Shown here piece by piece: positions 266 to 14,641 of a stretch of DNA of 64,000 nucleotides (within the stretch, counting starts at the first letter, position 1; the number at the start of each line of letters is the position of its first letter). Origin of the DNA: an uncultured Eubacteriales bacterium (GTDB lineage: Bacteria > Bacillota > Clostridia > Peptostreptococcales > Anaerovoracaceae); assembly GCA_902795135.1 (NCBI GenBank), contig CADBJW010000005.1, positions 1 through 64,000 on the forward strand, written 5' to 3'. The position numbers and the translations under genes are program-made. The notes beneath the pieces are model-generated. The model had not been told where the DNA came from and made no database searches. It worked only from the letters and a program-made list of their open reading frames with translations.

Positions 266-1066
266 TTATGTCGTCCCGAACTTAGCTAGAGTGTCCGGTG
301 TATGGCTGTCGCTGGATTGCACGAACTGCCCGCCGTGGGCCTCAATGTATTCTCGAATCGGCCGGGATGGGTACGGTTCCGTACGCCTTCCTCGGTGCAT
401 TGCTCCGTAATTGATTTCAAAGAGGGCGCCGGTCCGGAGAAGAGTATCTGCGGCCTTTTGCCACGCCGCAACATAGCGCGGATGGCTCTCATCAAAATAA
501 ACGCCTTTGCCGCCAAACTCTCCACCCTTATTAAACTTGCAAAACAGATCAAAATGGCCGATGATGTCCGCACCCGTTTTGTGAACGACCGCCGCGACTA
601 CTTCAAAATATTTTTCCGCAAACGCATACACATCGCCGCCGAAAAAGTGCTCGATGGCGTATTCAAACTTCTCCGGTGTATCGTCCACCGAAGGATATGC
701 AAATTCACCATTCATGGCGCATAGGGCCGGATCTGGAGGCTCTGCTGCATCCAGAGGAATTTCCACATAATGCACGGATCCGATTACGTAGTCCCACCGA
801 TCTGGTTTCTGGTCGGAATAATAGTCCTGCTCGATGCCGCACAGCACTTTGATCTGGCCAGCATATTTTCTTGCCGCTTCATGCACGGCCTTTTCGTATT
901 CATCCGTTTCTTCCACGGACATGCAGACTTCCTCATCAAAGGGTGTGTGGCTGTGCCCGGAAAACCCGAGGACATGGATTCCTTTCGCAATGGCCGCACG
1001 GACGATTTCGTCCGGCGTGCCGGTGCCGTCACAATATTGCGTATGCACATGCAAATCTTTTATCAT
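266..1066 (-). CDS. hisK: Histidinol-phosphatase, PHP family
   Basis: Dephosphorylates L-histidinol phosphate to histidinol, the penultimate biosynthetic intermediate. The 266-residue protein opens with the PHP metal-binding motif (HVHTQYCDG, residues 6-14). Further metal-ligand clusters follow: [17 protein letters not shown], and a C-terminal QSSDSHTPD in which Asp and His are the usual last ligands. Length and motifs match the HisK/HisJ type of Gram-positive bacteria rather than the HAD-type phosphatase of enterobacteria. The ATG overlaps the hisIE stop by 4 bp, so it is translationally coupled as the last gene of the his operon, just before a strong terminator. Assignment is also supported by the absence of any other histidinol-phosphatase domain in the cluster. 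Confidence 0.9.
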
Positions 1067-1731
1067 TTCGTCATTTTCTCCTGCTTGACCTTGTGGTCTA
1101 TAACATGGCGGGATGCCAGTTCTTCTGTAATATCGTCGAGGCTAATGCCGGCTTCCACCATGAGAACCATGACGTGATATGCCAGGTCTGCGATTTCATA
1201 AATCGTTTCCGCCTTATCCTCTGCCTTGGCTGCGATAATGACTTCCGTCGATTCTTCGCCGACTTTTTTCAGGATTTTATCCAGCCCTTTTTCGAAGAGA
1301 TAGGTCGTATAAGAACCTTCCTTTTTCTCGATTTTCCGGCCTTCGATCAGGTTCATGAGTCCTTCGTAAGAGAAGGTACCGTCGCCTTCCGGTAGATCCG
1401 CGCCTTCTGCTTCCAATACCGGATACTCAAAGCACGATTCTGTTCCCAGATGGCAGGCCGGTCCGTCCGGCACCACTTCCACCACCAGTGCATCCCGGTC
1501 ACAATCCGCCGTGATCGAAACGATGTGCTGGTAATTGCCACTGGTTTCTCCTTTTAGCCAGAGTTCCTGCCGGGAGCGACTCCAAAAGCAGGTCAGTTTC
1601 TTTTCCAATGAGATGCTCAGGCTCTCTTTATTCATATATGCCAAGGTCAGTACCCGTTTCGTATTTGTATCCACAACGATTGCCGGGATCAAACCTTTTT
1701 CATCAAATTTCAGCTCCTCAATCTTAACCAT
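1063..1731 (-). CDS. hisIE: Bifunctional phosphoribosyl-AMP cyclohydrolase / phosphoribosyl-ATP pyrophosphatase
   Basis: Catalyses the second and third steps of histidine synthesis, removing pyrophosphate from PR-ATP and opening the adenine ring of PR-AMP. Residues 1 to about 110 are the HisI domain, with the metal-binding stretch [10 protein letters not shown] and the cysteines of [11 protein letters not shown]. The remainder is a MazG-fold HisE domain with the acidic [15 protein letters not shown] motif and the EIADLAYH helix. The 222-residue length is normal for the fused HisIE form. It lies 15 bp downstream of hisF and its stop overlaps hisK. Confidence 0.95.
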
Positions 1732-1746
1732 TTTCTGTCTCCTTTT

Positions 1747-2505
1747 TTATAACCTTGCCGGGATTCCGGCATCTGCCATGGCCTTCTTCAAATCGTTGAT
1801 CGCTACTTCTCCGAAGTGGAAGATCGATGCCGCCAGTCCTGCATCGATATCCGGAATTGCTTCGAACAGATCGATGAAATCCTGAACGCATCCCGCACCG
1901 CCCGATGCGATAACCGGAACATTGACCGCTTCACAAACGGCCTTGAGCATTGGAATGTCAAAGCCCTGCTTCACACCATCGGTGTCGATGGAGTTGACCA
2001 CGATCTCACCGGCTCCATCGGCTACGCCGCGCCGGATCCAGTCAATGGCTTCCATCCCCGTATTTTCTCTTCCGCCTTTGGCAAAGACCCGGTAGACGCC
2101 ATCGATTTTCGCAATGTCCACGGACAGCACCACGCACTGATCGCCATAGAGCTTCGCCGCTTCTCCGATGATTCCCGGATTCCGGATCGCACCGGAGTTG
2201 ACGCTTACTTTATCTGCGCCGCACTTGAGCACCCGGTCAAAATCTTCGATGGTTCCGATTCCGCCACCCACGGTCAGGGGTATGAACACCTTACTCGCTG
2301 TCTCCGTCAATATATCCGTAAAGATTTTCCGTCCTTCATTGGACGCCGTAATATCATAAAAGACCAATTCGTCGGCACCGGCCTTTGTATAATATTCCGC
2401 CAGGGCGACCGGTGATGAAACATCAGCCAGTCCTTTGAAATTAACACCCTTGACGACTCTTCCGTCCTTCACGTCCAAACAAGGTATGATTCTTTTTGTT
2501 ATCAT
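1747..2505 (-). CDS. hisF: Imidazole glycerol phosphate synthase, cyclase subunit
   Basis: Beta/alpha-barrel subunit that uses ammonia delivered by HisH to convert PRFAR into imidazole glycerol phosphate and AICAR. The protein starts MITKRIIPCLDVKDGRVVKG, with the catalytic Asp in PCLD. It has the phosphate-binding loops GGGIGT and ASGGAG and the second catalytic Asp in NSIDTDG. The longer open frame would add eight residues. The start at 2505 is preferred because a GGAGG ribosome site lies just upstream and the product then has the usual 252 residues. It sits between hisA and hisIE. Confidence 0.95.
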   Translation of the reverse strand: MITKRIIPCLDVKDGRVVKGVNFKGLADVSSPVALAEYYTKAGADELVFYDITASNEGRKIFTDILTETASKVFIPLTVGGGIGTIEDFDRVLKCGADKVSVNSGAIRNPGIIGEAAKLYGDQCVVLSVDIAKIDGVYRVFAKGGRENTGMEAIDWIRRGVADGAGEIVVNSIDTDGVKQGFDIPMLKAVCEAVNVPVIASGGAGCVQDFIDLFEAIPDIDAGLAASIFHFGEVAINDLKKAMADAGIPARL

Positions 2506-2529
2506 TTCGTTCCTCCAATGGTTTTGCAT

Positions 2530-3243
2530 TTATTCCGCAGCTGCGATGGCTTCCGTTAGGTCGATGGCGCCCGTGTAGTAGGCCTTGCCTATGATCGCGC
2601 CGTAAATGTTCTGCGCGGCCAGCCGCTTCACATCGTCTATCGTCGATACGCCGCCGGAAGCAACGATCTGCATATCAAAAGCGCCGGCCAGCTCTTCATA
2701 GAGGGAATGGTTCGTCCCTTTCATGGCCCCGTCTTTGGAGATGTCTGTAACGATAATGGTCTTTACACCCATCTCCTGCATCTTCCGGCAGAACTCCATG
2801 GCGGTCTCCTGCGACTGTTCGGTCCAGCCTTTGATCGCTACATAACCGTCCCGCAGATCGATGCCAATGGCGATTTTCTCACCGTACTTTGCGACGGCTG
2901 CTTTTGCAAAATCCCGGTCGGTCACTGCCGCCGTTCCCAGAATCACCCGGTCCAAACCGGCTTCGATATATCGATCGACCACATCCATATCCCGGATGCC
3001 GCCGCCGATTTCACAAAAGAGTCCGCTCTCTTCTTTAATGCGACGGACCGTTTCAAAATTCGGGGTAGTTCCATCACGCGCCCCTTCCAAATCGACAATA
3101 TGGATGAACTCCGCCCCCGCCGCCGCAAAGGCTTTGCCAATTTCAGGCGGGTTCTCGCTGTAAATGGTCATGTCTTCGTATCTGCCTTTTAGCAGCCGCA
3201 CTGCTTTCCCGTCGTACAGGTCAATGGCCGGAAAGATTTTCAT
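2530..3243 (-). CDS. hisA: ProFAR isomerase
   Basis: 1-(5-phosphoribosyl)-5-[(phosphoribosylamino)methylideneamino]imidazole-4-carboxamide isomerase, an Amadori rearrangement and the fourth step of the pathway. The 237-residue barrel begins MKIFPAIDLYDGKAVRL with the general-base Asp at residue 8. It has GGGIRD and ASGGVS phosphate loops and the acidic DISKDGAMKG motif on strand 5. The open frame extends 62 codons further upstream, but that part lies inside hisH in another frame. The chosen ATG overlaps the hisH stop by 4 bp, giving translational coupling. Confidence 0.95.
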   Translation of the reverse strand: MKIFPAIDLYDGKAVRLLKGRYEDMTIYSENPPEIGKAFAAAGAEFIHIVDLEGARDGTTPNFETVRRIKEESGLFCEIGGGIRDMDVVDRYIEAGLDRVILGTAAVTDRDFAKAAVAKYGEKIAIGIDLRDGYVAIKGWTEQSQETAMEFCRKMQEMGVKTIIVTDISKDGAMKGTNHSLYEELAGAFDMQIVASGGVSTIDDVKRLAAQNIYGAIIGKAYYTGAIDLTEAIAAAE

Positions 3244-3905
3244 TTGCCAGCCTCCTCTCCTGTCTGCCCTTCGCAATCGGTCTGGATCTCGCAAAAGGCT
3301 TTGAGAATGCGCATTCCCACATCCCCGCTTTTTTCCGGATGGAATTGACATCCATAAACATTTCCGTTTGCCACGGCCGCCGTCAGCATGGCGCCGTATT
3401 CCGTATCGGCAATGACCGATGCCGCGCAATCGGTTGCGTAATAGGAATGAACGAAATATACGTAATCCCCGTCGTTGATGTATTTGAATAACTTATCGGC
3501 ACGGCCGCTTTCGTCGCGTTTCAGCTGCAGGGCGTTCCATCCAATATGAGGAATCTTGTATCCCTTTGGTGCTGCGCCCTCGATCGGTACAACCGTTCCT
3601 TTGATCAGTCCGAGGCCTTCGTGCTCACCGTACTCATAGCTTTTTTCCAGCAAAAGCTGCATGCCCAGACAAATGCCCATAAGCGGCTTGCCGGTCTTCG
3701 CCTGTTCCATAACGATCTCTGCCATTCCGGAACTTCGGAGTTTTGCCGCCGCGTCCTCGTAGGCACCAACGCCGGGCAGGATGATGCGGTCTGCCTTTCT
3801 GATTTTATCCGGATCCGATGTTACTTCCACATCTTCCCCTAAATACCGTAGTGAACTTTGGAGGGAAAACAGATTCCCTACGCCGTAGTCAATGATTGCT
3901 ATCAC
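3240..3905 (-). CDS. hisH: Imidazole glycerol phosphate synthase, glutaminase subunit
   Basis: Class I glutamine amidotransferase that hydrolyses glutamine and passes ammonia to HisF. The nucleophile Cys lies in GICLGMQLL and the His/Glu pair in CQFHPEKSG, completing the catalytic triad. The N-terminal IAIIDYGVGNL and LPGVGAYEDA motifs are typical. At 221 residues it is slightly longer than many HisH proteins because of a short polar C-terminal tail that runs into the hisA start. It overlaps hisB by one base and hisA by four, so expression is tightly coupled. Confidence 0.95.
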   Translation of the reverse strand: MIAIIDYGVGNLFSLQSSLRYLGEDVEVTSDPDKIRKADRIILPGVGAYEDAAAKLRSSGMAEIVMEQAKTGKPLMGICLGMQLLLEKSYEYGEHEGLGLIKGTVVPIEGAAPKGYKIPHIGWNALQLKRDESGRADKLFKYINDGDYVYFVHSYYATDCAASVIADTEYGAMLTAAVANGNVYGCQFHPEKSGDVGMRILKAFCEIQTDCEGQTGEEAGK

Positions 3906-4492
3906 TATAAAACTCCTTTCGTTGAAGGCACTTCATCTGCAAAGGCTTCTTCCACTTTTACTGCCGCCCCAATGGCACGTGCAGCGGACTTAAACATTCC
4001 TTCGATAATGTGGTGGGCGTTTCTGCCGGCCAGCTGCTTGATGTGCAGCGTGCACTGTGCATTCCTGACAAAGGCCTGCCAGAATTCTTCCGACAATTCC
4101 GTATCAAAGGTCCCGACCTTTTGGGCCCAAATATCCGCTTCATAGGCCAGGTAACTCCGGCCGGAAAAATCGATGGCCGTCAGAATGAGCGCCTCATCCA
4201 TCGGCAGAATCATACTGCCGTACCGGACGATTCCCTTCTTATCCCCCAGTGCCTCTGCAAAGGCCTGGCCAAGGGCGATTCCTATATCTTCGGTGGTGTG
4301 GTGGTCATCCACCTCCGTATCACCGGTTGCCTGGATCTGCAAATCGAACCGGCCGTGCCGCGCAAAGAGCGTCAGCATGTGATCTAAAAAACCTACGCCC
4401 GTCTGAATCTCGCTCTTGCCGCTTCCGTCCAGCTCCAGGGTCAGCTTGATATCCGTCTCTCCGGTTTTTCTGTTTACTTCTGCTGTCCTCAT
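3905..4492 (-). CDS. hisB: Imidazoleglycerol-phosphate dehydratase
   Basis: Dehydrates imidazole glycerol phosphate to imidazole acetol phosphate. This is the monofunctional 195-residue form, without the HAD phosphatase domain of the enterobacterial enzyme; that activity is supplied here by the PHP-type HisK. Manganese-binding motifs are visible: VGFLDHMLTLFARHG, DDHHTTEDIGIALGQA and a C-terminal GRNAHHIIEGMFKS. The start has a purine-rich ribosome site and lies 19 bp after hisC. It is followed directly by hisH. Confidence 0.95.
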   Translation of the reverse strand: MRTAEVNRKTGETDIKLTLELDGSGKSEIQTGVGFLDHMLTLFARHGRFDLQIQATGDTEVDDHHTTEDIGIALGQAFAEALGDKKGIVRYGSMILPMDEALILTAIDFSGRSYLAYEADIWAQKVGTFDTELSEEFWQAFVRNAQCTLHIKQLAGRNAHHIIEGMFKSAARAIGAAVKVEEAFADEVPSTKGVL

Positions 4493-4511
4493 TTGTTACC
4501 TCCATCGCCTA

Positions 4512-5570
4512 TCAGCGATTTACTATTTCCTTTAGTTTTTCTATGAAAATTTCCATTTGCTGCCTGCTGCCAATGGTCACTCTGTTATACTGGCAGATGC
4601 GTGCTTTGGTAAAGTGTCTTACTAAAACGCCCCGTGCCTTTAAGGTTTCGTAGATGTATTCCCCATCTACCTGCGGGTGCTTCATGAAGATAAAATTCCC
4701 TACGGAATTCGTCAGCTCAAAGCCCAATTTGCGGAGTTCCCCCACCGTATATTCCCGGGTCTTTATGACCGCTTCACAGTTGTCCTGAGTGTAGTCCTCG
4801 TCTTCCAAAACCCCGACTGCCGCCGCCATGGTCATGGCATTGATGTTGTACGGATTGGTGGAATTCCTGAGAGTATTCATATCGCAGATCAAATCCCTGC
4901 AGGCGATTCCGTATCCTAATCTGGCCCCGGCAAGGGAGCGGGATTTGGACATGGTCTGCACGACGATCACATTATCGTATTTCTTCGTGAGCTCCACGCA
5001 GCTCTCTGCTCCGAAATCCACATAGGCTTCATCGATTACCACCACGTTATCCGGATTGCTCCTTACGATGCCTTCCAGATCTGCCCGGGAAAGGGCCACG
5101 CCTGTATGCGCGTTTGGGTTGGCGATAAAAATCGTTCCTCCGGCCTTTGTATAATCCTTTACATCGATGGTGAAGTCCTCACGCAATGGCATCTCAACGT
5201 ATGGAATCTGTCCGGCCTGAGAAAACACCGGGTAAAACCCATAGGTAACATCCGGGAATATGGCCGGCGTCTCTTTATCGCAAAAGGCCAGGAAGGCAAA
5301 GTTCAGTATCTCGTCCGATCCGTTTCCCGCAATGATATTTTCCGGTGCCACGTCGAACTTCTCTGCCAGCTTCCGGATCAGAACTCTGGCGTCCGGATCG
5401 GAATAAAGCTGCAGGCGCTTCGCCGCCTCTGAGGCTTTTGCGATTGCCTTTGGGGAAGGCGGAAAGGGCGATTCGTTGGTATTTAACTTGATGTATTGCT
5501 GATCTTGTGGCTGTTCACCCGGTACGTAGGGCGTCAGCTGGGCATATTTGCTGCTAAAAAATCTACTCAT
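4512..5570 (-). CDS. hisC: Histidinol-phosphate aminotransferase
   Basis: PLP-dependent fold-type I enzyme that transaminates imidazole acetol phosphate to histidinol phosphate with glutamate. The PLP lysine is in QTMSKSRSLAGARLGY. The VIDEAYVDF aspartate and the LNTNESPFPPSP N-terminal substrate motif are present. The open frame would allow a start at 5591. The ATG at 5570 (MSRFFSSKY) is chosen because an AGAGGAAA ribosome site precedes it and it overlaps the hisG stop by 8 bp. The product is 352 residues, normal for HisC. In many clostridial his operons hisD lies between hisG and hisC; here the two genes overlap directly. Confidence 0.93.
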   Translation of the reverse strand: MSRFFSSKYAQLTPYVPGEQPQDQQYIKLNTNESPFPPSPKAIAKASEAAKRLQLYSDPDARVLIRKLAEKFDVAPENIIAGNGSDEILNFAFLAFCDKETPAIFPDVTYGFYPVFSQAGQIPYVEMPLREDFTIDVKDYTKAGGTIFIANPNAHTGVALSRADLEGIVRSNPDNVVVIDEAYVDFGAESCVELTKKYDNVIVVQTMSKSRSLAGARLGYGIACRDLICDMNTLRNSTNPYNINAMTMAAAVGVLEDEDYTQDNCEAVIKTREYTVGELRKLGFELTNSVGNFIFMKHPQVDGEYIYETLKARGVLVRHFTKARICQYNRVTIGSRQQMEIFIEKLKEIVNR

Positions 5571-6210
5571 TGTTTCCTCTGCTTTCGACAACGCGGCTCA
5601 GACCTTCCATGACCCGTTCGATCTCCTGGTTCTGGAACTTGAAACTGGATTTGTTGGAAATGAATCTGGCGCTGATCTGGTCGATGACCTGGACGACTTC
5701 CAGGTTGTTTTCTCTTAAGGTGGTTCCTGTTTCGACAAGATCGACGATCACGTCCGACAGGCCTAGTATCGGTGCCAGCTCTATGGAACCGTTCAGTTTG
5801 ATGATGTCAATGTCTCTGCCAGTTGACGCATAAAACTGTCTGGCTACGTTTACAAATTTTGTTGCCACACGGAGGGTGGACTGGACGTCGTCCTGAAATC
5901 CCTTTGGCGCCGCGACCGCCATTCTGCATTTGCCGGTTTCCAGATCCAGAAGTTCGTAAACTTCCGGTCGCGATTCCATCAGTATATCTTTGCCGACGAC
6001 ACCGATGTCTGCTGCGCCCCGCTCAACGTATATGGCAACATCGGAGGGTTTGACCCAAAAGTATCGGACGCCTTTTTCTTCGTTTTCGAAGATGAGCTTG
6101 CGGTTCTTCTCTTTGATGGAAGGACATTCATATCCGGCCTCCTCAAACATGTCGTAGACCCGTTCGCCGAGTCTGCCCTTTGGAAGCGCTACGTTTAACA
6201 TTTTAGCCAC
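5563..6210 (-). CDS. hisG: ATP phosphoribosyltransferase, short catalytic subunit
   Basis: Condenses ATP with PRPP in the committed step of histidine synthesis. At 215 residues it is the short form (HisG-S), which lacks the C-terminal regulatory domain and needs HisZ for activity and histidine feedback. Visible features are the N-terminal NVALPKGRLGERV motif, GVVGKDILMES, and the PRPP loop around VDLVETGTTLRENNL. The start is GTG at 6210, supported by an AGGAGG site 9 bases upstream. It overlaps the hisZ stop by 8 bp. Confidence 0.94.
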   Translation of the reverse strand: MAKMLNVALPKGRLGERVYDMFEEAGYECPSIKEKNRKLIFENEEKGVRYFWVKPSDVAIYVERGAADIGVVGKDILMESRPEVYELLDLETGKCRMAVAAPKGFQDDVQSTLRVATKFVNVARQFYASTGRDIDIIKLNGSIELAPILGLSDVIVDLVETGTTLRENNLEVVQVIDQISARFISNKSSFKFQNQEIERVMEGLSRVVESRGNNE

Positions 6211-7192
6211 GTATCACAACCTCCTCTCCATCGAACTTGGACAGCTTCCCCAGATAGTCCATGTAGACGGCGAATCCGATGGCTCTGGATGTCCGGTTCA
6301 TATTGTCCATTAATTTATCGTACTGCCCGCCGGAAAGCACTCCGTCCGGAACGCCTTCCACAAAGCCCTTAAAAATGATGCCGTTGTAGTAGTTCAGATC
6401 GCTGACCACGGAGAAGTCGATCCGGAGCATATCCTCCAGGCCGGTTCCTTCAAAGGCATCCATGATGGTGACAAGCCGTTTGATGCTGTCGCTGTAGATC
6501 TTTCTTGACTCTTCGGACAGATCATCTCCCAGGTCGTAGAAGACTTCTTCCAACTCGCTGATGACTTCCTCCGGATCACCGTACAACGTGATGAGCTTTT
6601 GCAAAAGCTCTTTTTTCTGGCCGTCGATGCCGTTCTCGTCGCAGATGCGCGACAGACTGTGGAGGTTCTTTTCTCCGATGCAGCCGGTGATCTTGGCTTC
6701 CACCTCTTCGGAAACATCACAGGCTTCTATGATTCTGGAGAGAATGTCCAGATTGGAAATGTCCAGAACGGCGTTTTCCGACAAGACCTTGAGGCTTTCT
6801 GCCGCCATCAGCAAAACCTCACAGATGCATTCTTCGTCGACTTTCCCCAGACACTCCAGACCCACCTGCATGATTTCTTTGAAATAGTGGGTTTTCGGTG
6901 AGACCCGGTAGATGTTCTCGTTATAGTAAAGTTTGCGGATGTCATTTCCAATGTGGCGGTTGTTTTTTACAATCGACAAGGTTACGTCCGGTTTCAATGC
7001 CATGAGCATGCCGTCTGTATCCGTAAAGGTAATGATCGATGCCGAATCCATAAAATCGCGGTTTCTGGCATAAAGATCAAACTCCTCAAATTTACTCATT
7101 CTATATAAAGAAAAACCATGACTGCTGTACAACGCACGTAAAGCAAACATGGCCTTTTCCCTATTATTAAGATCTGCGCCCTCAATAATCAT
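6203..7192 (-). CDS. hisZ: ATP phosphoribosyltransferase regulatory subunit
   Basis: HisRS-like paralogue that binds histidine and activates short-form HisG. The protein lacks the tRNA anticodon-binding domain of real HisRS. It keeps the class II core, with ALKPDVTLSIVKN, RVSPKTHYFKEIMQVGLECLG and a C-terminal YYNGIIFKGFV-GGQYDKL motif. An ATG at 7219 is possible. The ATG at 7192 is preferred because a GGAG ribosome site lies 7 bases upstream, the product starts near where family members begin, and the codon forms an ATGA overlap with the stop of the His-rich leader frame. It is the first structural gene of the his operon. The N-terminus lacks the common LPEG-type motif, so it is a divergent member. 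Confidence 0.87.
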   Translation of the reverse strand: MIIEGADLNNREKAMFALRALYSSHGFSLYRMSKFEEFDLYARNRDFMDSASIITFTDTDGMLMALKPDVTLSIVKNNRHIGNDIRKLYYNENIYRVSPKTHYFKEIMQVGLECLGKVDEECICEVLLMAAESLKVLSENAVLDISNLDILSRIIEACDVSEEVEAKITGCIGEKNLHSLSRICDENGIDGQKKELLQKLITLYGDPEEVISELEEVFYDLGDDLSEESRKIYSDSIKRLVTIMDAFEGTGLEDMLRIDFSVVSDLNYYNGIIFKGFVEGVPDGVLSGGQYDKLMDNMNRTSRAIGFAVYMDYLGKLSKFDGEEVVIRG

Positions 7193-7281
7193 AGGTTCAC
7201 TCCATTTCTTCGCTTCCATTGCTCAAATCGATTCTGTTCTATTCCGCTGCTATGATGCAGATGATCGTGTAAATGCTTCAT
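7189..7281 (-). CDS. Histidine-rich leader peptide of the his operon
   Basis: A 30-codon frame reads MKHLHDHLHHSSGIEQNRFE followed by ten more residues. Five of the first ten codons are histidine, all CAT or CAC. It starts with ATG 8 bases after an AAGAGG ribosome site, about 65 bases after the predicted transcription start. Its TGA overlaps the preferred hisZ ATG as ATGA. The position, codon content and overlap are those expected for a leader peptide sensing charged tRNA-His; the regulatory role is inference. No T-box sequence was found in this leader. Confidence 0.75.
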   Translation of the reverse strand: MKHLHDHLHHSSGIEQNRFEQWKRRNGVNL

Positions 7282-7298
7282 TTTCGTTCCTCTTCTGT

Positions 7299-7313
7299 CC
7301 GGTTTTATACCGG
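7299..7313 (-). promoter_or_regulatory. Small hairpin upstream of leader-peptide ribosome site
   Basis: CCGGT and ACCGG pair around a 5-base loop in the his leader RNA, directly before the ribosome site of the His-rich leader frame. A longer pairing (GGTTTT with AAAACC about 40 bases apart) could enclose it. Its role is unknown; it may be part of an attenuation or translational switch. Confidence 0.35.
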
Positions 7314-7353
7314 TCTTCGCTGGGGCATTTCGCCGCTCCCAAAACCATTTATT

Positions 7354-7382
7354 ACTCTATCAGTTTATCACGCGAAAGTCAA
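7354..7382 (-). promoter_or_regulatory. Predicted sigma-A promoter of the his operon
   Basis: On the minus strand TTGACT (7377-7382) is separated by 17 bases from TAGAGT (7354-7359). Transcription would start near 7347, giving an untranslated leader of about 65 bases before the His-rich leader frame. Confidence 0.6.
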
Positions 7383-7414
7383 GAAGATTTATTATATTCT
7401 CTTGCAATGAAATA

Positions 7415-7436
7415 GCCGCCCGATTGTCCGGGCGGC
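7415..7436 (-). terminator. GC-rich terminator after the hut cluster
   Basis: GCCGCCCG and CGGGCGGC form an 8-bp stem with a 6-base loop 20 bases after the gntR stop. The downstream tract on the minus strand is only moderately T-rich. It separates the hut cluster from the his operon on the same strand. Confidence 0.65.
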
Positions 7437-7455
7437 CCATATCTCGAATGGTTCC

Positions 7456-8130
7456 CTATTTCATTGTACCCCGCTCCCTCCAGCGTTCCACGGCGCGGCG
7501 GGCGGATCCTTCCAGATGTTCGCCGATTTCGGCCTTTGCGCGTTCCTTGTCGCGATCGCGAATCGCTTCGTAAATACGCACGTGCTCTTTGTAGATCTCC
7601 GGGAGGTTTTCCTCTTTCGAGAGTGTGCTTCTTCGGGCAAGGTGCACGTAATCCTGATAGGACCTGAGCACTTGCACGATGAACCGGCTCCCGGTCATCT
7701 GGTAGATCATGTTGTGAAAAACTTCGTTCGCCTGAAGCAGTTTCTCACAAAACCCATGCTCCGTATAGAAGTTCATCAGATCCAACTGTTCTCTGAGACC
7801 GTCCAGACTCTCATCGTCAGCATTTTCGATGGCCCAGATCACAGCCAATTCTTCAACCGCCTTGCGGACGGCATAGATATCCGACATATCCTTTTGGCTG
7901 AACCCTTTTGCAAAACAACCTTTATTCGGTATGTATTCAATAAGCTGTTCTTTGACCAGTTGTTTAAACGCATCTCGTACAGGAGTTCTGCTTACTTTCA
8001 GCTCCTTTGCGATTTTGTTTTCAACTAGTTTCTCGCCCATCTCATACTCGCCGGTAAGGATCCTGTTTCGGAGGATTTCCGCAACCTCGTCAGCGAGAGA
8101 CGATTCTCCGGTAATAACCTGTTGCTGCAC
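7456..8130 (-). CDS. GntR-family transcriptional regulator (FadR/FCD type)
   Basis: 224 residues. An N-terminal winged HTH (about 10-75) holds the motif ELKVSRTPVRDAFKQLVKEQLIEY, and an all-helical FCD ligand domain follows with several acidic and His positions (EVFHNMIYQMTGS). The start is GTG at 8130 after an AAGGAAG site. It is the last gene of the histidine-degradation cluster, 18 bp after ftcD, so it probably controls hut expression in response to a pathway intermediate such as urocanate. That ligand is inference. It is unrelated to HutC or HutP, the regulators known from proteobacteria and Bacillus. Confidence 0.85.
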   Translation of the reverse strand: MQQQVITGESSLADEVAEILRNRILTGEYEMGEKLVENKIAKELKVSRTPVRDAFKQLVKEQLIEYIPNKGCFAKGFSQKDMSDIYAVRKAVEELAVIWAIENADDESLDGLREQLDLMNFYTEHGFCEKLLQANEVFHNMIYQMTGSRFIVQVLRSYQDYVHLARRSTLSKEENLPEIYKEHVRIYEAIRDRDKERAKAEIGEHLEGSARRAVERWRERGTMK

Positions 8131-8148
8131 GATTTTCGCTTCCTTTCC

Positions 8149-9045
8149 TTAAAGCAGGTGGTTTTCGATAACCTGTACATCAGGGTTGAAGTCTTCGATC
8201 TGCAGATAGTATTCCGCAGCGTCGAGAAATGCCTGCATTGGTGCCAGACCGATAACCTCTGTTCCGATTACGTTGACGCCGTATCTTGCGGCTTCTCTTC
8301 TTACGAGCTCCAGTACTCTGTGGAGTGGTGTTACGTTAAAGTTTGTCATGTTGATGGATACCTGCGCAACATTTCTGTCTTCCAGCAAAAGTCCCATAGC
8401 TTTAACGCACTTAAATCCGCCTTTTACTTCTCTGATAATATTTGCAATCTTCTTCGCGATCTCGACATTGTCTGTTGCCAGGTTGATGTTAAACGCGATA
8501 AGTGGAGGTCTGGCGCCTACTGCAACAACGCCGCCTGTTGGGTGGATTCTCTGTCCACCGAAATCCGGGATCCACTTGTCTTCCTTGACCTTTTCGGCCA
8601 TTCCTTCAAACTGGCCTTTTCTGATCTTTGCCAGATTCTTTCTGTGTTTTGCTGTTGCGGAGTCTTCATAAAGAAATACCGGCAGATCTGCCTCTTCGGC
8701 AATTCTTGCTCCGACTTTCTTTGAAAGCTCAATGCAATCTTCTGTCGTTGCTTCTTTGATTGGAATGAACGGCATTACGTCAACACAACCCATTCTTGGG
8801 TGTCCGCCTTCATGCTTCGTCAGGTCGATCAGCTCAACGGCTTTCTTTGCCAGCTTTATACTTGCTTCTTCGACCGCTTCCGGACTTCCCATGTAGGTAA
8901 TAACGGACCGGTTATGCGTCTCATCGGATGAGTAGTCAAGAAGTGTACATCCTGCAGTGTTTCGAATCTGGTCTACACATGCTTCGATGACTTCCTGGTT
9001 TCTGCCTTCACTGATGTTTGGTACACTTTCAATAATTTTTGCCAT
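8149..9045 (-). CDS. ftcD: Glutamate formimidoyltransferase
   Basis: Transfers the formimino group of N-formimino-L-glutamate to tetrahydrofolate, yielding glutamate and 5-formimino-THF. The 298-residue protein corresponds to the transferase half of mammalian FTCD: it begins IIESVPNISEGRNQEVIEAC and has the conserved HEGGHPRMGCVDVMPFIP motif around the catalytic His. The cyclodeaminase half is a separate gene directly upstream (fchA, 9-bp gap). A strong GGAGG site precedes the ATG. With hutHUI it completes conversion of histidine to glutamate plus a one-carbon unit. Confidence 0.95.
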   Translation of the reverse strand: MAKIIESVPNISEGRNQEVIEACVDQIRNTAGCTLLDYSSDETHNRSVITYMGSPEAVEEASIKLAKKAVELIDLTKHEGGHPRMGCVDVMPFIPIKEATTEDCIELSKKVGARIAEEADLPVFLYEDSATAKHRKNLAKIRKGQFEGMAEKVKEDKWIPDFGGQRIHPTGGVVAVGARPPLIAFNINLATDNVEIAKKIANIIREVKGGFKCVKAMGLLLEDRNVAQVSINMTNFNVTPLHRVLELVRREAARYGVNVIGTEVIGLAPMQAFLDAAEYYLQIEDFNPDVQVIENHLL

Positions 9046-9054
9046 AGCTTCCTC

Positions 9055-9681
9055 CTATAAACTTCCCTCTATTTCTGCATATAAACGTCTTGCGATTTCC
9101 TCGCCTTCCGCCAGCATTTTCTTACCATCTTCTTCGCATTTTGCTGCAAAAGCTTCGTCCTTGACTCCCGGCAGATTGATTTTGACGTTGAGCCATGCGC
9201 CTCTCATGCAGGTCATGAAATTGAGCACGCCTACGCCATAGTCACTGGCACAGTTTGTGTTGAAGTGACCCTGAAGTCTGTCTGCCAGTTTCAGGCCTTT
9301 GTATGAATACTCCATCACGCTGAATGGAACTTTTGTCGCTTCCAGAGTTCCATCTGCGATTGCCTTTTTACGGAGTGCCTTTTCGTCCGGCGTTTCTTTT
9401 GGCATCTTGAACGCGGCCGCAATGAGATTGTACGCATCTGTATCCCGGTCGATGGATGCAGCCAGCTCTTCATAAAGTGCAACGGCTTCTTCTTTGATTG
9501 CCGCACAATATTCATGCTCATCCGCATACTTTTTCTTTGATGTGGTCAGATCGCACACCATTGCCATAAGCGCTGCTCCCTGTGCGCCTGCAAGAGCGCT
9601 TACGGAACCGCCGCCTGGTGCCGGTGCATCAGATAACAGAACGTCCAGATATTCGTTGAGTTTCAAATCGATTAATTTCAT
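9055..9681 (-). CDS. fchA: Formimidoyltetrahydrofolate cyclodeaminase
   Basis: Converts 5-formimino-THF to 5,10-methenyl-THF and ammonia. The 208-residue all-helical protein carries the SDAPAPGGGSVSALAGAQGA signature and the KKYADEHEY segment typical of the family. The frame is open 20 codons further upstream, but the start at 9681 follows an AAGGAG site and overlaps the hutI stop as TAATG. It provides the link from histidine breakdown to the folate pool, which matters in anaerobes that use one-carbon units for biosynthesis or acetogenic reactions. Confidence 0.93.
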   Translation of the reverse strand: MKLIDLKLNEYLDVLLSDAPAPGGGSVSALAGAQGAALMAMVCDLTTSKKKYADEHEYCAAIKEEAVALYEELAASIDRDTDAYNLIAAAFKMPKETPDEKALRKKAIADGTLEATKVPFSVMEYSYKGLKLADRLQGHFNTNCASDYGVGVLNFMTCMRGAWLNVKINLPGVKDEAFAAKCEEDGKKMLAEGEEIARRLYAEIEGSL

Positions 9682-10907
9682 TATACTAATTCTCCTTTTT
9701 TGATAACCTTTTCTGCAAGGTTGGATCCAAATCGGTAACAAACCATTTCAAAGTCCGGTGCGTTCCAAATTACCATATCGGCCTGTTTGCCTGGTTCAAT
9801 GGTTCCCACCAGATCGCCCCGGTTGATCGCGCATGCCGGATTGATGGTCACAGCAGTAAGAACTTCTTCCGGTGTAAGTCTGTACTTCAGACATCCCAGA
9901 TTCATGGCGAGCTGCAGATTCAGGGATGGACAGGAACCCGGGTTAAAGTCACTGGCAATGGCAACCGGAATGCCCTTCTCAATCATAGCCTTTGCCGGCG
10001 CATAGGTCGCACCGAGGTAGAAGGATGTAGCCGGAAGACACATGGCGGTCGTTCCTCCTGCAGCCATGGCGTCCATGCCGCTTTCTTTGATCGCAATCAG
10101 GTGTTCTGCGGAAGTCGCTTCCATTTCTCCTGCCAGCTCCGTTCCACCGATGGCTTCGATTTCATCGGCATGGATTTTCAGATCAAATCCGGCTTCTCTG
10201 GCAGCCTGCATGTACTTTCTGCTCTGCGCTGCGTCAAACACGGCTTCTTCACAGAAAATATCGCAAAACTCTGCCAGGCCCTGCTTCTTGACTTCCGGAA
10301 TCATTTCCTTGCAAAGGAACTCGATATATTCGTCGCCTTTGTCTTCGTATTCCGGCGGAATCGCATGGGCTCCCATAAAGGTCGGAACGACATCCATCTT
10401 ATGGTTCTCTTTCATGGAGTTGATGACGCGGAGCATCTTGAGTTCGCTGTCCATGGTCAGGCCGTAGCCGCTTTTTACTTCACAGGTCGTTACGCCGAAG
10501 CCCAGCATTTCATCCAGAAACGCCGCACTCTTCTCATACAGTGCCTCTTCGGAAGCGTCTCTCGTTTTTCTTACTGTGTCCAAAATGCCGCCGCCGGCTC
10601 TGAGAATATCCAGATATCCGGCTCCGGCGATCTTCATAGCCAGTTCATGCTGTCTGTATCCGCCGAAAACCAAATGGGTATGTCCGTCTACGAGACCCGG
10701 CGTAACGAGTTTGCCTTCTGCATCGATCACCTGATCGAATGCGCTCCCATCGCTTTTGCCGTTTGCAACGATCTCTTTGACGATCCCGTCCTCGATGACG
10801 ACTTCCACGTTATTGTATTTTTCGTTTAATCCCTGCTTACTGCCTTTGTGGCTGTAGCTGCCCACAGGTGTCTGCAGGCAGCCGATATTGGTTACAAGTG
10901 TTTTCAT
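9681..10907 (-). CDS. hutI: Imidazolonepropionase
   Basis: Amidohydrolase-superfamily metalloenzyme that opens 4-imidazolone-5-propionate to N-formimino-L-glutamate. The 408 residues contain the metal-binding DGHTHLVFGG motif, the KSGYGLTMDSELKML segment, a HADE motif and the ASDFNPGSCPSLN metal-site stretch near the C-terminus, all family hallmarks. It lies 27 bp downstream of hutU and is coupled to fchA by a TAATG overlap. Confidence 0.95.
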   Translation of the reverse strand: MKTLVTNIGCLQTPVGSYSHKGSKQGLNEKYNNVEVVIEDGIVKEIVANGKSDGSAFDQVIDAEGKLVTPGLVDGHTHLVFGGYRQHELAMKIAGAGYLDILRAGGGILDTVRKTRDASEEALYEKSAAFLDEMLGFGVTTCEVKSGYGLTMDSELKMLRVINSMKENHKMDVVPTFMGAHAIPPEYEDKGDEYIEFLCKEMIPEVKKQGLAEFCDIFCEEAVFDAAQSRKYMQAAREAGFDLKIHADEIEAIGGTELAGEMEATSAEHLIAIKESGMDAMAAGGTTAMCLPATSFYLGATYAPAKAMIEKGIPVAIASDFNPGSCPSLNLQLAMNLGCLKYRLTPEEVLTAVTINPACAINRGDLVGTIEPGKQADMVIWNAPDFEMVCYRFGSNLAEKVIKKGELV

Positions 10908-10934
10908 GTTTCTCTCACATCCCTTTAGGCTTTT

Positions 10935-12959
10935 CTATTTTACGTATTTGTCGACAACTTCTGCTACGAGATCGTCGGATGCAATGTAAGGAATGGTAAT
11001 GTGTCCCTTACCCGCATAGTTGGCGTTGTATTCTACGGATGTTTCTACCGCGTGTTCGTTTCTCGCCCAGTTTCTTCTGGCAACGCCGCCCATAACGTCC
11101 CACATCATTGCGGAGTGCAGGATCTTGTCAACTCTTTCACTTCCATCCAGAAGCAATCCGAAGCCGCCGTTGATGGCTTTGCCGATTCCTACGCCGCCGC
11201 CGTTATGAAGTGCACAAAGGCTCATGCCTCTGGCTGCGTTTCCTGCATAGCACTGAACGGCCATATCTGCCATTACATTGGAACCATCCTTGATGTTGGA
11301 TGTTTCTCTGAATGGGGAGTCGGTTCCGGATACGTCGTGGTGGTCTCTTCCCATCATGACCGGACCGATCTTGCCTTCTCTTACCAGCTTATTGAATGCG
11401 AGACCGATGTCTCTTCTGCCTTCTGCATCCTGATAAAGGATTCTTGCCTGTGTTCCTACGACCAGCTTGTTCTTCTCTGCGTCGCGGATCCAGATCCAGT
11501 TGTCTCTGTCCTGACCGCGTCTGTTTGGATCGATGACATCCATAGCCGCCTGGTCTGTGGCTCTAAGGTCTTCCGGTTTGCCGGACAGGCATACCCATCT
11601 AAATGGACCGTAGCCATAGTCAAAGAGTACCGGACCCATAATGTCTTCTACGTAGGACGGCCAGATAAATCCGTCTTTATCATCGATGCCGTTCTTGGAG
11701 ATTTCCTTAACGCCGGCATCATACATTGCCTTCATGAAGGAGTTGCCGTAGTCGAAGAAGTAGGTTCCTCTCTCTGTGAGGGTCTTGATTGCGGCATAAT
11801 GTCTGTGCAATGTCTTATCAACTTCCTGACAGAACTTGTCTCTGTCTTCGTGAAGCATTTTAGTTCTTTCTTCGAAAGTATATCCAACCGGGCAGTATCC
11901 GCCGTTGTATACGTTATGGCAGGAAGTCTGGTCGGAAAGCAGATCGATGTGGAAGTTTCTCTTTACAGCGTCTTCCAGCAGGTCAACGATGTTTCCGTGG
12001 TAAGCGATGGATACGCTTTCCTTTGCAGCCAGCTTTTCTTCTGCCAGCTTGAATACTTCGTCAAGGTCTTCGCAGACAACGTCTACCCAGCCCTGATCAT
12101 GTCTGGTTTCAATTCTGGATTTGTCAACTTCTGCGAAAATGCCGACTGCATTTGCAATGTTTGCTGCCTTTGGCTGTGCACCACTCATACCACCAAGGCC
12201 GGATGATACAAATGTATGTCCTGCCAGATCGCCGTCTTCCGGAACGCCCAGTTCCTTACGGCCTGCATTAAGAATTGTGTTGAATGTACCGTGAACGATG
12301 CCCTGCGGTCCGATGTACATCCAGCCGCCTGCTGTCATCTGTCCATAGTTTGCAACGCCCATTTCCTCAGCAACTTCCCAGTCTTCCAGATTGTCATACA
12401 TACCAATCATAATGGAGTTTGTAATAATGACTCTCGGTGCTTCCGGCTTGGATGGGAACAATCCCAGAGGATGTCCGGATTCAACAACCAGTGTCTGTTC
12501 GTCGGTCATCTCTTCCAGATACTTTTTGATCAGTCTGTACTGGAGCCAGTTCTGACAAACCTGTCCGGTCTCACCATACGTAACCAGTTCATACGGATAA
12601 AGCGCTACCTCGAAGTCCAGATTGTTGTCGATCATGACCTGGAATGCTTTTCCTGCCAGGCAATTGCCTTTGTATTCATCAATCGGCTTGCCATAGATTC
12701 TGCCTTCCGGTCTGTAACGATATGCGTAAACTCTTCCCAGAGTTGTGAGCTCTTCCATGAATTCCGGTGCCAGCTTTTCGTGAAGTTCTTCCGGAACGTA
12801 TCTGAGGGCATTCTTCAGAGCAATCTTTGCCTGTGCATTGGTCAGTCTGAATCCTCTGTCCGGTGCTCTACGGATTCCTTCCTGGAATTTCGGATAATCC
12901 GGATATTCGTTATCGAGCTTGATCGTCATTGCCTTTGCAATATCTTTGTTTTCTAACAT
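10935..12959 (-). CDS. hutU: Urocanate hydratase
   Basis: Adds water to urocanate to give imidazolonepropionate, using a tightly bound NAD+ as electrophile. The protein has 674 residues, longer than the roughly 550-residue Pseudomonas and Bacillus enzymes but in keeping with the long form seen in many anaerobes and eukaryotes. Conserved stretches include QMTAGGWMYIGPQGIVHGT, SSGLGGMSGAQPKA near the dinucleotide site, and the SGTDSPFRETSNIKDGS segment. A GGAGG site precedes the ATG. It is second in the operon, after hutH. Confidence 0.94.
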   Translation of the reverse strand: MLENKDIAKAMTIKLDNEYPDYPKFQEGIRRAPDRGFRLTNAQAKIALKNALRYVPEELHEKLAPEFMEELTTLGRVYAYRYRPEGRIYGKPIDEYKGNCLAGKAFQVMIDNNLDFEVALYPYELVTYGETGQVCQNWLQYRLIKKYLEEMTDEQTLVVESGHPLGLFPSKPEAPRVIITNSIMIGMYDNLEDWEVAEEMGVANYGQMTAGGWMYIGPQGIVHGTFNTILNAGRKELGVPEDGDLAGHTFVSSGLGGMSGAQPKAANIANAVGIFAEVDKSRIETRHDQGWVDVVCEDLDEVFKLAEEKLAAKESVSIAYHGNIVDLLEDAVKRNFHIDLLSDQTSCHNVYNGGYCPVGYTFEERTKMLHEDRDKFCQEVDKTLHRHYAAIKTLTERGTYFFDYGNSFMKAMYDAGVKEISKNGIDDKDGFIWPSYVEDIMGPVLFDYGYGPFRWVCLSGKPEDLRATDQAAMDVIDPNRRGQDRDNWIWIRDAEKNKLVVGTQARILYQDAEGRRDIGLAFNKLVREGKIGPVMMGRDHHDVSGTDSPFRETSNIKDGSNVMADMAVQCYAGNAARGMSLCALHNGGGVGIGKAINGGFGLLLDGSERVDKILHSAMMWDVMGGVARRNWARNEHAVETSVEYNANYAGKGHITIPYIASDDLVAEVVDKYVK

Positions 12960-13010
12960 TCGTATCCTCCTTTTTCACCAAAGTAGCTTCTGTCTGTTGT
13001 CCGATTTTTA

Positions 13011-14552
13011 TTATCTGAGTTTGATAATCTTTTCAACAGCGTCGTTGATTGAAAAGTCTTTCACCATTTTATCAAACTTAGCCAGTTCTGGCTGCATAAT
13101 AATGTCTTCTTCGATTGGATCAGAAACCGTTCGGATGTATTCATAAGCAGCTCTCGTTGCTGGTGCCAGGTTGTCGATACCACCTTCGCCCTGTTCCTGT
13201 CTGAGCCAAATTGCCTGTGCTGCTGCACTCAATTCAATGCCGATGATCTTCTGAACATTGTCCAATACCATGGCAGATGTTCTGGCGGATGTCGTTCCCA
13301 TTGATACATGGTCTTCCTGGTTTGCGGAAGTCGGAATGGAATCCACACATGCCGGGTGATCGTAAACTTTGTTTTCGGATGCCATGGATGCTGCCGCATA
13401 CTGCGCGATCATGTATCCGGAGTTCAGGCCTCCGTTCTTTACGAGGAATGCAGGCAGTCCTTCGGAAAGCTGTGAGTTAACCAGTCTCTCGATTCTTCGT
13501 TCAGAAACGCTTCCCAGTTCGGAGATGGCGATCTTCAGGAAGTCAAAGGCCAATGCCATTGGCTGTCCGTGGAAGTTACCACCGGAAATGACTTCGTCGC
13601 TGACTGCAAATACCAGTGGGTTATCCGTTACGGCATTGATTTCCAGCGATACTTTGTCATATACATATGCGATCGCATCTCTGGATGCACCATGGATCTG
13701 CGGTACGCATCTCTGTGAATACGGATCCTGTACTTTTACTTCATGAAGCCACTTGGCGTTGTCGGATCCATCCAGAAGGTCTCTCATGTTGGCAGCTTCT
13801 GTGATCTGTCCAACCTGACCACGAATGGCGTGGACTTTTGGATCGTATGCTTTACGGATCGCATGGAGCGCTTCGCCGGTCATTGCTGCTGCAATATCTG
13901 CGGTCTTCAGAAGTTGCATGGCATCATACAGTACGTTTACGCCAACGGCGGTCATCATCTGTGTACCGTTGTTCAGTGCCAGACCTTCCTTCGCTGCCAG
14001 TTCTACCGGAACAAGTCCTTCTGCCGCAAAGGCTTCTTTCGCATCTACGATTCTATCTTTGTATTCTACCTTACCAAGTCCGATCAGTCCCAATGCAATA
14101 CAGGAAAGCGGTGCCAAGTCACCAGAGGATCCTACCGATCCCTTTTCTGGAACGACCGGAACGATGTCAGCATTGAGCATGTCAATCAGAGTCTGTACGG
14201 TTGAGAGTCTGATTCCGGAATACCCGCTTGCCAAAGCATTACATCTCAGCAGCATCGCAGCTCTTACATAGTGCTTCGGGTATTTTTCTCCCATGGCGCA
14301 GGTGTGACTCATAATCAGGTTCTTTTGAAGCTGAGCAGTTTCTTCTTGTGAAATCTTTACGCTTGCAAATCTTCCAAATCCCGTTGTAAGTCCATAGATG
14401 ACTGCGTCTTTCGCAAGTTTGTCTTCTACGTAATCGCGAGCTCTTTTGATATCGATTTTCGCGCCTTCTGTTAATTCGACTTTCTCTCCGTTTCTGCACA
14501 CTTTGATGATGTCTTCTACAGTAAGATTATGTCCGTCAATTTTAATAGTCAT
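13011..14552 (-). CDS. hutH: Histidine ammonia-lyase
   Basis: Eliminates ammonia from histidine to give urocanate. The 513-residue protein starts MTIKIDGHNLTVEDI at an ATG with a GAGGAG site; the longer frame adds 22 unlikely residues. The YGLTTGFGRF substrate loop is present. The MIO cofactor site reads GSVGSSGDLAPLS, with Ser-Ser-Gly at residues 142-144 where the textbook tripeptide is Ala-Ser-Gly. The serine and glycine that form the ring backbone are kept, so activity is expected. It is the first gene of the hut cluster. Confidence 0.94.
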   Translation of the reverse strand: MTIKIDGHNLTVEDIIKVCRNGEKVELTEGAKIDIKRARDYVEDKLAKDAVIYGLTTGFGRFASVKISQEETAQLQKNLIMSHTCAMGEKYPKHYVRAAMLLRCNALASGYSGIRLSTVQTLIDMLNADIVPVVPEKGSVGSSGDLAPLSCIALGLIGLGKVEYKDRIVDAKEAFAAEGLVPVELAAKEGLALNNGTQMMTAVGVNVLYDAMQLLKTADIAAAMTGEALHAIRKAYDPKVHAIRGQVGQITEAANMRDLLDGSDNAKWLHEVKVQDPYSQRCVPQIHGASRDAIAYVYDKVSLEINAVTDNPLVFAVSDEVISGGNFHGQPMALAFDFLKIAISELGSVSERRIERLVNSQLSEGLPAFLVKNGGLNSGYMIAQYAAASMASENKVYDHPACVDSIPTSANQEDHVSMGTTSARTSAMVLDNVQKIIGIELSAAAQAIWLRQEQGEGGIDNLAPATRAAYEYIRTVSDPIEEDIIMQPELAKFDKMVKDFSINDAVEKIIKLR

Positions 14553-14641
14553 AACTCCATCTCCTCTTCTTAAACCATAACGTATTATTTTTATTTTTTT
14601 CAAATAGTCTGTTAACAACTTACATATTATAGACTGTTTGT

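Follow-up and report, generated by a model that had tools for sequence, protein, structure and literature searches.

A histidine-rich leader frame overlaps the start of hisZ

In the window, by which we mean the whole 64,000-nt stretch of contig CADBJW010000005.1 from an uncultured Eubacteriales bacterium, a cluster of histidine biosynthesis genes lies on the minus strand with hisZ as its first gene, and a 30-codon reading frame with histidine at codons 3, 5, 7, 9 and 10 occupies positions 7281-7189 immediately ahead of it. The stop codon TGA of this leader frame shares the four bases ATGA with the hisZ ATG at 7192. An earlier reading of the locus from its letters only (the sequence-only reading) had described the frame and the overlap and had proposed a ribosome-mediated sensor of charged tRNA-His; translation of 7281-7189 confirmed the frame, and the overlap was found at 7192-7189. 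The His-rich frame may well sense histidine supply in this bacterium and in two close relatives. The features of the locus are collected in Table 1.

Table 1. Features at the hisZ end of the his cluster (window positions)
Feature	Positions	Strand	Basis
hisZ, ATP phosphoribosyltransferase regulatory subunit, first gene of the his cluster	6203..7192	-	best model TIGR00443; adjoins hisG
Hairpin S1, hisZ codons 10-30 (core 7152-7116, U-rich tract 7115-7107); candidate intragenic terminator	7105..7164	-	codon conservation, terminator score
ATGA, leader stop over hisZ start	7189..7192	-	sequence; G013 keeps ATGA, G031 has a 6-nt gap
Leader frame MKHLHDHLHHSSGIEQNRFEQWKRRNGVNL and stop	7189..7281	-	translation; frames in relatives; selection tests
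Likely hisZ ribosome site GGAG, within the leader frame	7200..7203	-	sequence
Leader 3' end pairing with 7152-7134 (alternative S2, antiterminator-like)	7202..7222	-	predicted in all three species, weak against controls
Leader ribosome-binding site AGAGGAACGAAA	7282..7293	-	sequence
Predicted promoter TTGACT-17-TAGAGT, spacer containing gacTTTCgcgtgaTAAActg	7354..7382	-	9/12 consensus matches
Terminator-like hairpin 3' of the upstream GntR gene, between that gene and the his promoter	7414..7437	-	terminator scan

The frame had also been credited with a ribosome site and a promoter of its own. The ribosome site is present in the sequence, starting at 7293 on the minus strand (AGAGGAACGAAAATG). 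The promoter corresponds to a match with TTGACT from 7382, a 17-nt spacer and TAGAGT ending at 7354; since shuffled sequences yielded 1.2 promoter-like sites on average against the 2 found by scanning 6900-7600, the promoter evidence is weak by itself. As far as the letters go, a short His-codon-rich frame with a ribosome site precedes a his operon, and its stop lies at or beside the start of the structural gene, as an overlap in the window and in one relative (G013) and with a 6-nt gap in another (G031).

The best profile for hisZ was TIGR00443 (E 2.6e-52, 177.9 bits, under the curated cut-off of 271.65). Among 15 named contigs of relatives, hisD immediately precedes hisZ in 11, and hisZ comes first in the other four (G013, G031, G033 and G026). 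Because in five of the 15 (L036 to L040) the hisZ frame opens just 0-2 codons ahead of the ATG matching 7192, hisZ likely starts at 7192 and not at the in-frame ATG at 7219, which bears out the start that the sequence-only reading had preferred.

Shuffling the 270-nt leader stretch 4000 times with dinucleotides preserved never produced an ATG frame with at least four His among its first 12 codons. In the whole window, read on both strands, one other ATG frame reached this level (at 1450, plus strand); it lies antisense to what we take, from its resemblance, to be hisIE; allowing GTG and TTG starts added three further frames.

The leader in relatives and selection on its His codons

HisZ was searched for in 61 genomes, the window's own included, and matched in 51. 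Within the genus group of 49 genomes, 39, again with its own, had HisZ at E values up to 1e-30, and the region upstream of hisZ was read in 33 of these (34 nt only for L021 and 186 nt for L032). The six others were G012, where the contig ends, G061 and G063, where the gene was not located, and G066, G068 and G072, which had no locus.

A His-rich frame directly before hisZ was found in three of the 33: the window and its two closest relatives, G013 and G031, whose HisZ proteins are 89% and 85% identical to that of the window. On the suggested check, a comparison of hisZ upstream regions, both of these relatives share the His-rich frame and one of them the ATGA overlap: the G013 leader (MLKNASIHAHMNLHHCGTNEQYQIKQRERRNGYL) keeps it and the G031 leader (MKHLHHTHLHHCGTIKQKKERKRRKW) stops 6 nt ahead of hisZ. 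A Shine-Dalgarno (SD)-like sequence precedes the leader in all three species, weaker in G031. In G013 the leader remains with hisZ although the upstream genes look different by eye. G033 and G026 are hisZ-first, yet lack the leader.

Other members of the genus (L009, L013, L039 and L061) have frames with three His that overlap the end of hisD. In the wider family, none of 49 loci (out of 84 non-genus genomes with a match) had a His-rich frame beside hisZ; three frames with at least four His in 14 residues were seen at distances of approximately 1100, 730 and 130 nt from hisZ on its upstream side, and the nearest of them begins with TTG. No HisZ relative was found on viral contigs. A 9-codon frame, MKGMHHPWQ and stop, with two His and overlapping the hisZ start, was noticed by eye in L022 (G001); it may be due to chance because L065 and L066 do not show it.

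The hisZ genes of the three leader species have diverged to synonymous distances (dS, NG86) of 1.62, 1.26 and 1.09, near saturation. In simulations of neutral evolution the frame stayed open with at least four His in 0.07-0.24% of runs at distances of 1.5-1.0, in 1.7% at 0.5 and in 6.6% at 0.3. His residues of the window leader were kept in the relatives in 9/10 cases and other residues in 18/50 (p 0.002), a count made on BLOSUM62 alignments, which favour His-His matches. Non-His residues were kept in 9/25 cases in each comparison with the window leader, while HisZ is 85-89% identical. The leader thus looks to be under selection within the clade, in a pattern that fits selection on the His codons; because the peptide is otherwise poorly kept, what counts seems to be the codons and not a protein.

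A hairpin within the first codons of hisZ

The leader species share a second feature, hairpin S1, inside the hisZ coding sequence. Synonymous sites in the first 36 hisZ codons were alike more often than in the rest of the gene in each pair of leader species: 29/33 versus 128/247 for the window and G013 (p 4e-5), 28/33 versus 132/235 for the window and G031 (p 0.001) and 28/33 versus 138/237 for G013 and G031 (p 0.002). Across 17 species, the 10-codon windows 6-15 and 21-30 showed the highest synonymous conservation of hisZ (0.72 and 0.73, mean 0.50), S1 codons 14, 16, 22 and 27 were synonymously invariant, and the loop codons 17-20 varied most (0.23-0.36 versus the hisZ mean).

In an alignment, 99.4% of cells were paired in S1 as against 33-59% when the structure was slid; no pair had changed on both sides and all shuffles equalled S1. 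Judged on these sequences, the support for S1 is codon conservation and not covariation. The z values from a codon-preserving fold test of 13 sequences ranged from -1.03 to -4.6 and were weak for several of them. Whatever the leader does, a hairpin with several synonymous sites invariant throughout the genus needs explaining.

The U-rich tail of S1 is longer in the three leader species (UUUUUCUUU). Scored directly as a terminator, S1 reached -3.5 in all three, the best of 22 rows, and -12.9 to -57.7 in the other 19, some of which are near-duplicates. The usual threshold for this score is 0. The score is a rough one, because S1 outscores the hairpin after the GntR gene (-11.3).

An alternative fold and modelled ribosome stalling

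In an alternative predicted fold, S2, the 3' end of the leader pairs with the 5' part of S1 (Table 1). When a ribosome was modelled as stalled on the His codons, with the 3' arm of S1 not yet made, S2 was the predicted fold in all three species; for a ribosome at the leader stop, the leader strand of S2 was assumed to be covered. In comparison with other stretches of hisZ, the S2 level was reached in 4.5%, 0.7% and 13% of cases for the three species, and leader-less relatives mostly gave lower scores. Of the 30 pairs in the S2 consensus, eight vary on one side with pairing kept, and one pair of an inner hairpin breaks in one sequence.

The sequence-only reading had also suggested that stalling could change the folding of the leader or reduce its coupling to hisZ. 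Placing a ribosome on each His codon in the model gave a mean unpaired probability of 0.46-0.60 at the hisZ ribosome site (0.48-0.56 free) and 0.48-0.70 at the hisZ start (0.48-0.59 free).

These models, and several features of the locus, weigh against the leader-peptide sensor set out below, with S1 and S2 as its attenuator. The largest shifts in pairing under modelled stalling were 0.04 at the hisZ ribosome site and 0.11 at the start, some up and some down; no clear start-site switch emerged, and such a switch as the sole mechanism was rejected. S2 was the prediction even for RNA free of ribosomes. As soon as the 3' arm of S1 was complete, S1 was the best predicted fold in every state, stalled included; a switch would therefore rest on timing. 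The S2 level was reached in 15%, 2.9% and 21% of shuffles and in 23%, 1.1% and 59% of synonymous randomisations in the three species; the leader-less L019 (p 0.117) and L018 (p 0.203) came near the values of the leader species (0.107, 0.04 and 0.193), and no S2 pair had changed on both sides. Because these controls are mixed, S2 is a lead with weak support.

To the same side of the balance belong the terminator scan of 6900-7600, which found only the hairpin after the GntR gene and none between leader and hisZ, and the S1 score, which is below 0. The S1 stem codons 13 (0.51) and 26 (0.47) vary, and another stretch of hisZ reaches 0.64 in synonymous conservation. S1 occurs across the genus, including genomes where no leader was found, so its role may be an older and separate one. 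The leader itself is carried by only three species of one clade, and the His codons in the window are mostly spaced, unlike the runs reported for other Firmicutes.

A possible histidine sensor and other explanations

In our preferred explanation, the frame would be a regulatory leader peptide, on which the translating ribosome would respond to charged tRNA-His and thereby control the operon that hisZ heads. With histidine plentiful, the ribosome would reach the leader stop and cover the 3' end of the leader; S1 would then form ahead of hisZ translation and halt RNA polymerase. With histidine short, the ribosome would stall on the His codons, the 3' end of the leader would pair with the 5' arm of S1 to form S2, and transcription would continue. 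A codon-level hisZ hairpin present across the genus may have been turned into a terminator after hisZ became the first gene, the U-rich tail being best developed in the leader species.

That the frame acts as a His-codon ribosome sensor of any sort has, in our estimate, close to an even chance, and the specific version with S1 and S2 as attenuator is rather unlikely. We hold it just as unlikely that a young attenuator has arisen here, in a genome with a gene for a TrpR/HisR-family repressor as well, whose terminator lies inside the hisZ coding sequence and whose His sensor and antiterminator strand both come from the leader frame. The tRNA-His sensor of the sequence-only reading remains plausible: the selection pattern on the His codons in three species speaks for it, and modelled stalling did not yield the start-site switch that it had offered as a mechanism. 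Its other suggestion, that stalling reduces coupling to hisZ, has the wrong sign, because with histidine scarce it would turn down the very operon that makes histidine. The sign of an attenuator suits a biosynthetic operon, and attenuator logic fits better than reduced coupling, if the frame is a sensor.

Plain translational coupling, in which ribosomes loaded at the frame go on to reinitiate at hisZ and the His codons slow this slightly or are irrelevant, agrees with the overlap in two of the three species and the 6-nt gap in the third, and with the position of the hisZ SD sequence within the window's leader frame. Reinitiation at leader frames has been proposed to raise expression and stalling to lower it (PMC4833913). 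Coupling would leave the better retention of His residues than of others unexplained, and we regard it as rather unlikely. A functional His-rich micropeptide, binding for example metal or RNA, would account for a His-rich N end and a basic C end that are alike in the three species, where each of the three pairwise alignments beat 2000 shuffles. Such a peptide is highly improbable in view of the poor retention of its non-His residues, and the RR part lies near the hisZ ribosome site, which may itself account for the conservation of RR. Equally slight is the probability of a chance or decaying frame without function; the frame was seen in three species and in none of the other 30 of the 33 genus genomes read, one of them with just 34 nt upstream, and the shuffle and neutral-evolution tests argue against it.

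There is also the reading in which HisR, a repressor of the TrpR family, controls the operon at the promoter, leaving the leader passive or with a small part in fine tuning. The HisR operator has been described as a 20-bp palindrome with the core TTTA-N6-TAAA (PMC9413887). By profile match, the genome encodes a member of the TrpR/HisR family (PF01371, 107 bits, G000:C25:12227-12481), and a perfect core stands upstream of hisD in all 13 hisD-first rows scored, two of which are duplicates. In the window, gacTTTCgcgtgaTAAActg in the promoter spacer has one mismatch to the core and follows the -35 element TTGAC, as in L008, L022 and L066. A site as good turned up in 168 of 2000 mononucleotide shuffles (8.4% by chance), which makes this one weak, and HisR control would leave the retained His codons unexplained. 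Moreover, the extra site before the leader of G031 and G013 is absent from the window. We judge this reading to be quite unlikely.

The extra sites are placed as follows: in G031 (L007), TTTAACGGGATAAA, with no mismatch, lies just before the leader start, and G013 (L006) has a counterpart with one mismatch; both overlap the region of the leader ribosome site. Allowing one mismatch, the pattern CTTTA-N6-TAAAG occurred 67 times in the genome and a reversed control pattern 150 times; because the control is commoner, the pattern alone carries no weight. No his gene was recognised by eye beside its three perfect genome sites.

Double control by a repressor and the leader is possible. The E. coli trp operon is controlled by the TrpR repressor plus the trpL leader, and a possible likeness is that a TrpR-family repressor and a leader peptide act together; it differs from the window, where the HisR operator is weak and attenuation is a proposal.

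Relation to known systems

The sequence-only reading had taken his operons of Firmicutes to be usually under T-box control. This holds in part: among the Eubacteriales surveyed, T-boxes are rare and HisR is widespread (PMC9413887), and a TrpR/HisR-family gene is present here. Its statement that the leader holds no T-box was upheld, there being no match to RF00230 in the window; elsewhere in the genome four matches were found, one above the cut-off. A T-box or other Rfam leader was rejected, as no Rfam family matched the window at its gathering score. In particular, the E. coli hisL attenuator (RF00514, His_leader), which likewise has a His-rich leader frame before the his operon, had no match in the window at that score or in 6900-7700 at E values up to 10; the window leader further differs in overlapping the first gene.

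His leader peptides before hisZ have already been reported in Firmicutes (PMC2965389, PMC4833913), and leader-peptide attenuators before hisZ or his operons are known from the Bacillus cereus group, Peptostreptococcaceae (C. difficile), Lutispora and Erysipelotrichales (PMC9413887, PMC2965389). What these share with the window is a short frame with His codons that precedes hisZ or the his operon; here, by comparison with what those texts describe, the His codons are mostly spaced, the frame overlaps the start, no terminator precedes hisZ and a TrpR/HisR-family gene is present. Reinitiation leader genes likewise have their stop at or beside the structural-gene start, and differ in that they favour no specific amino acid and are defined as non-overlapping, with a weak peak at 15-16 bp in Firmicutes (PMC4833913).

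Because such leader peptides have been published for the B. cereus group and C. difficile, leader-peptide control of hisZ is of a known kind, and what is new here is the arrangement: the overlapping start, the lack of a terminator before hisZ and the TrpR/HisR-family gene. The words Mogibacterium, Anaerovorax and family XIII do not occur in the main text of PMC9413887, and at the level of titles and abstract openings no attenuator overlapping hisZ with an intragenic terminator was found in literature searches. Should the frame prove to sense tRNA-His, control by a leader peptide would have arisen inside a single genus whose members encode a TrpR/HisR-family repressor as well. Searches confined to intergenic regions would overlook an attenuator whose terminator lies within the first gene.

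Gene neighbourhood

From hisZ the minus-strand cluster continues with hisG, which matched TIGR00070 above the cut-off, and hisC, with a hisJ-family gene at the far end; the genes between those identified by profile carry names that we presume from their sequences. In this genome hisD sits outside the cluster (G000:C20:13528-14718, L050), and upstream of it just a frame within the preceding gene was seen.

A leader before hisD was also looked for in relatives (16 loci, 14 usable, from 12 distinct genomes; L012 showed no hisD start and L041 is mostly N). Frames with at least two His all overlapped the GntR gene or its end, except for one GTG frame in L041. This frame (MTHQHKERYKND and stop) has two His and overlaps the hisD start (hisD at 1699); approximately 55 bases are readable there, with masked sequence before them, and the weak frame may be due to chance.

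Upstream of the his cluster lie a GntR regulator and then a cluster with hutH, a gene of histidine breakdown. The biosynthesis and hutH clusters are co-directional across 266-14618 of the window with the GntR regulator between them, an order that recurs, by eye, in several relatives.
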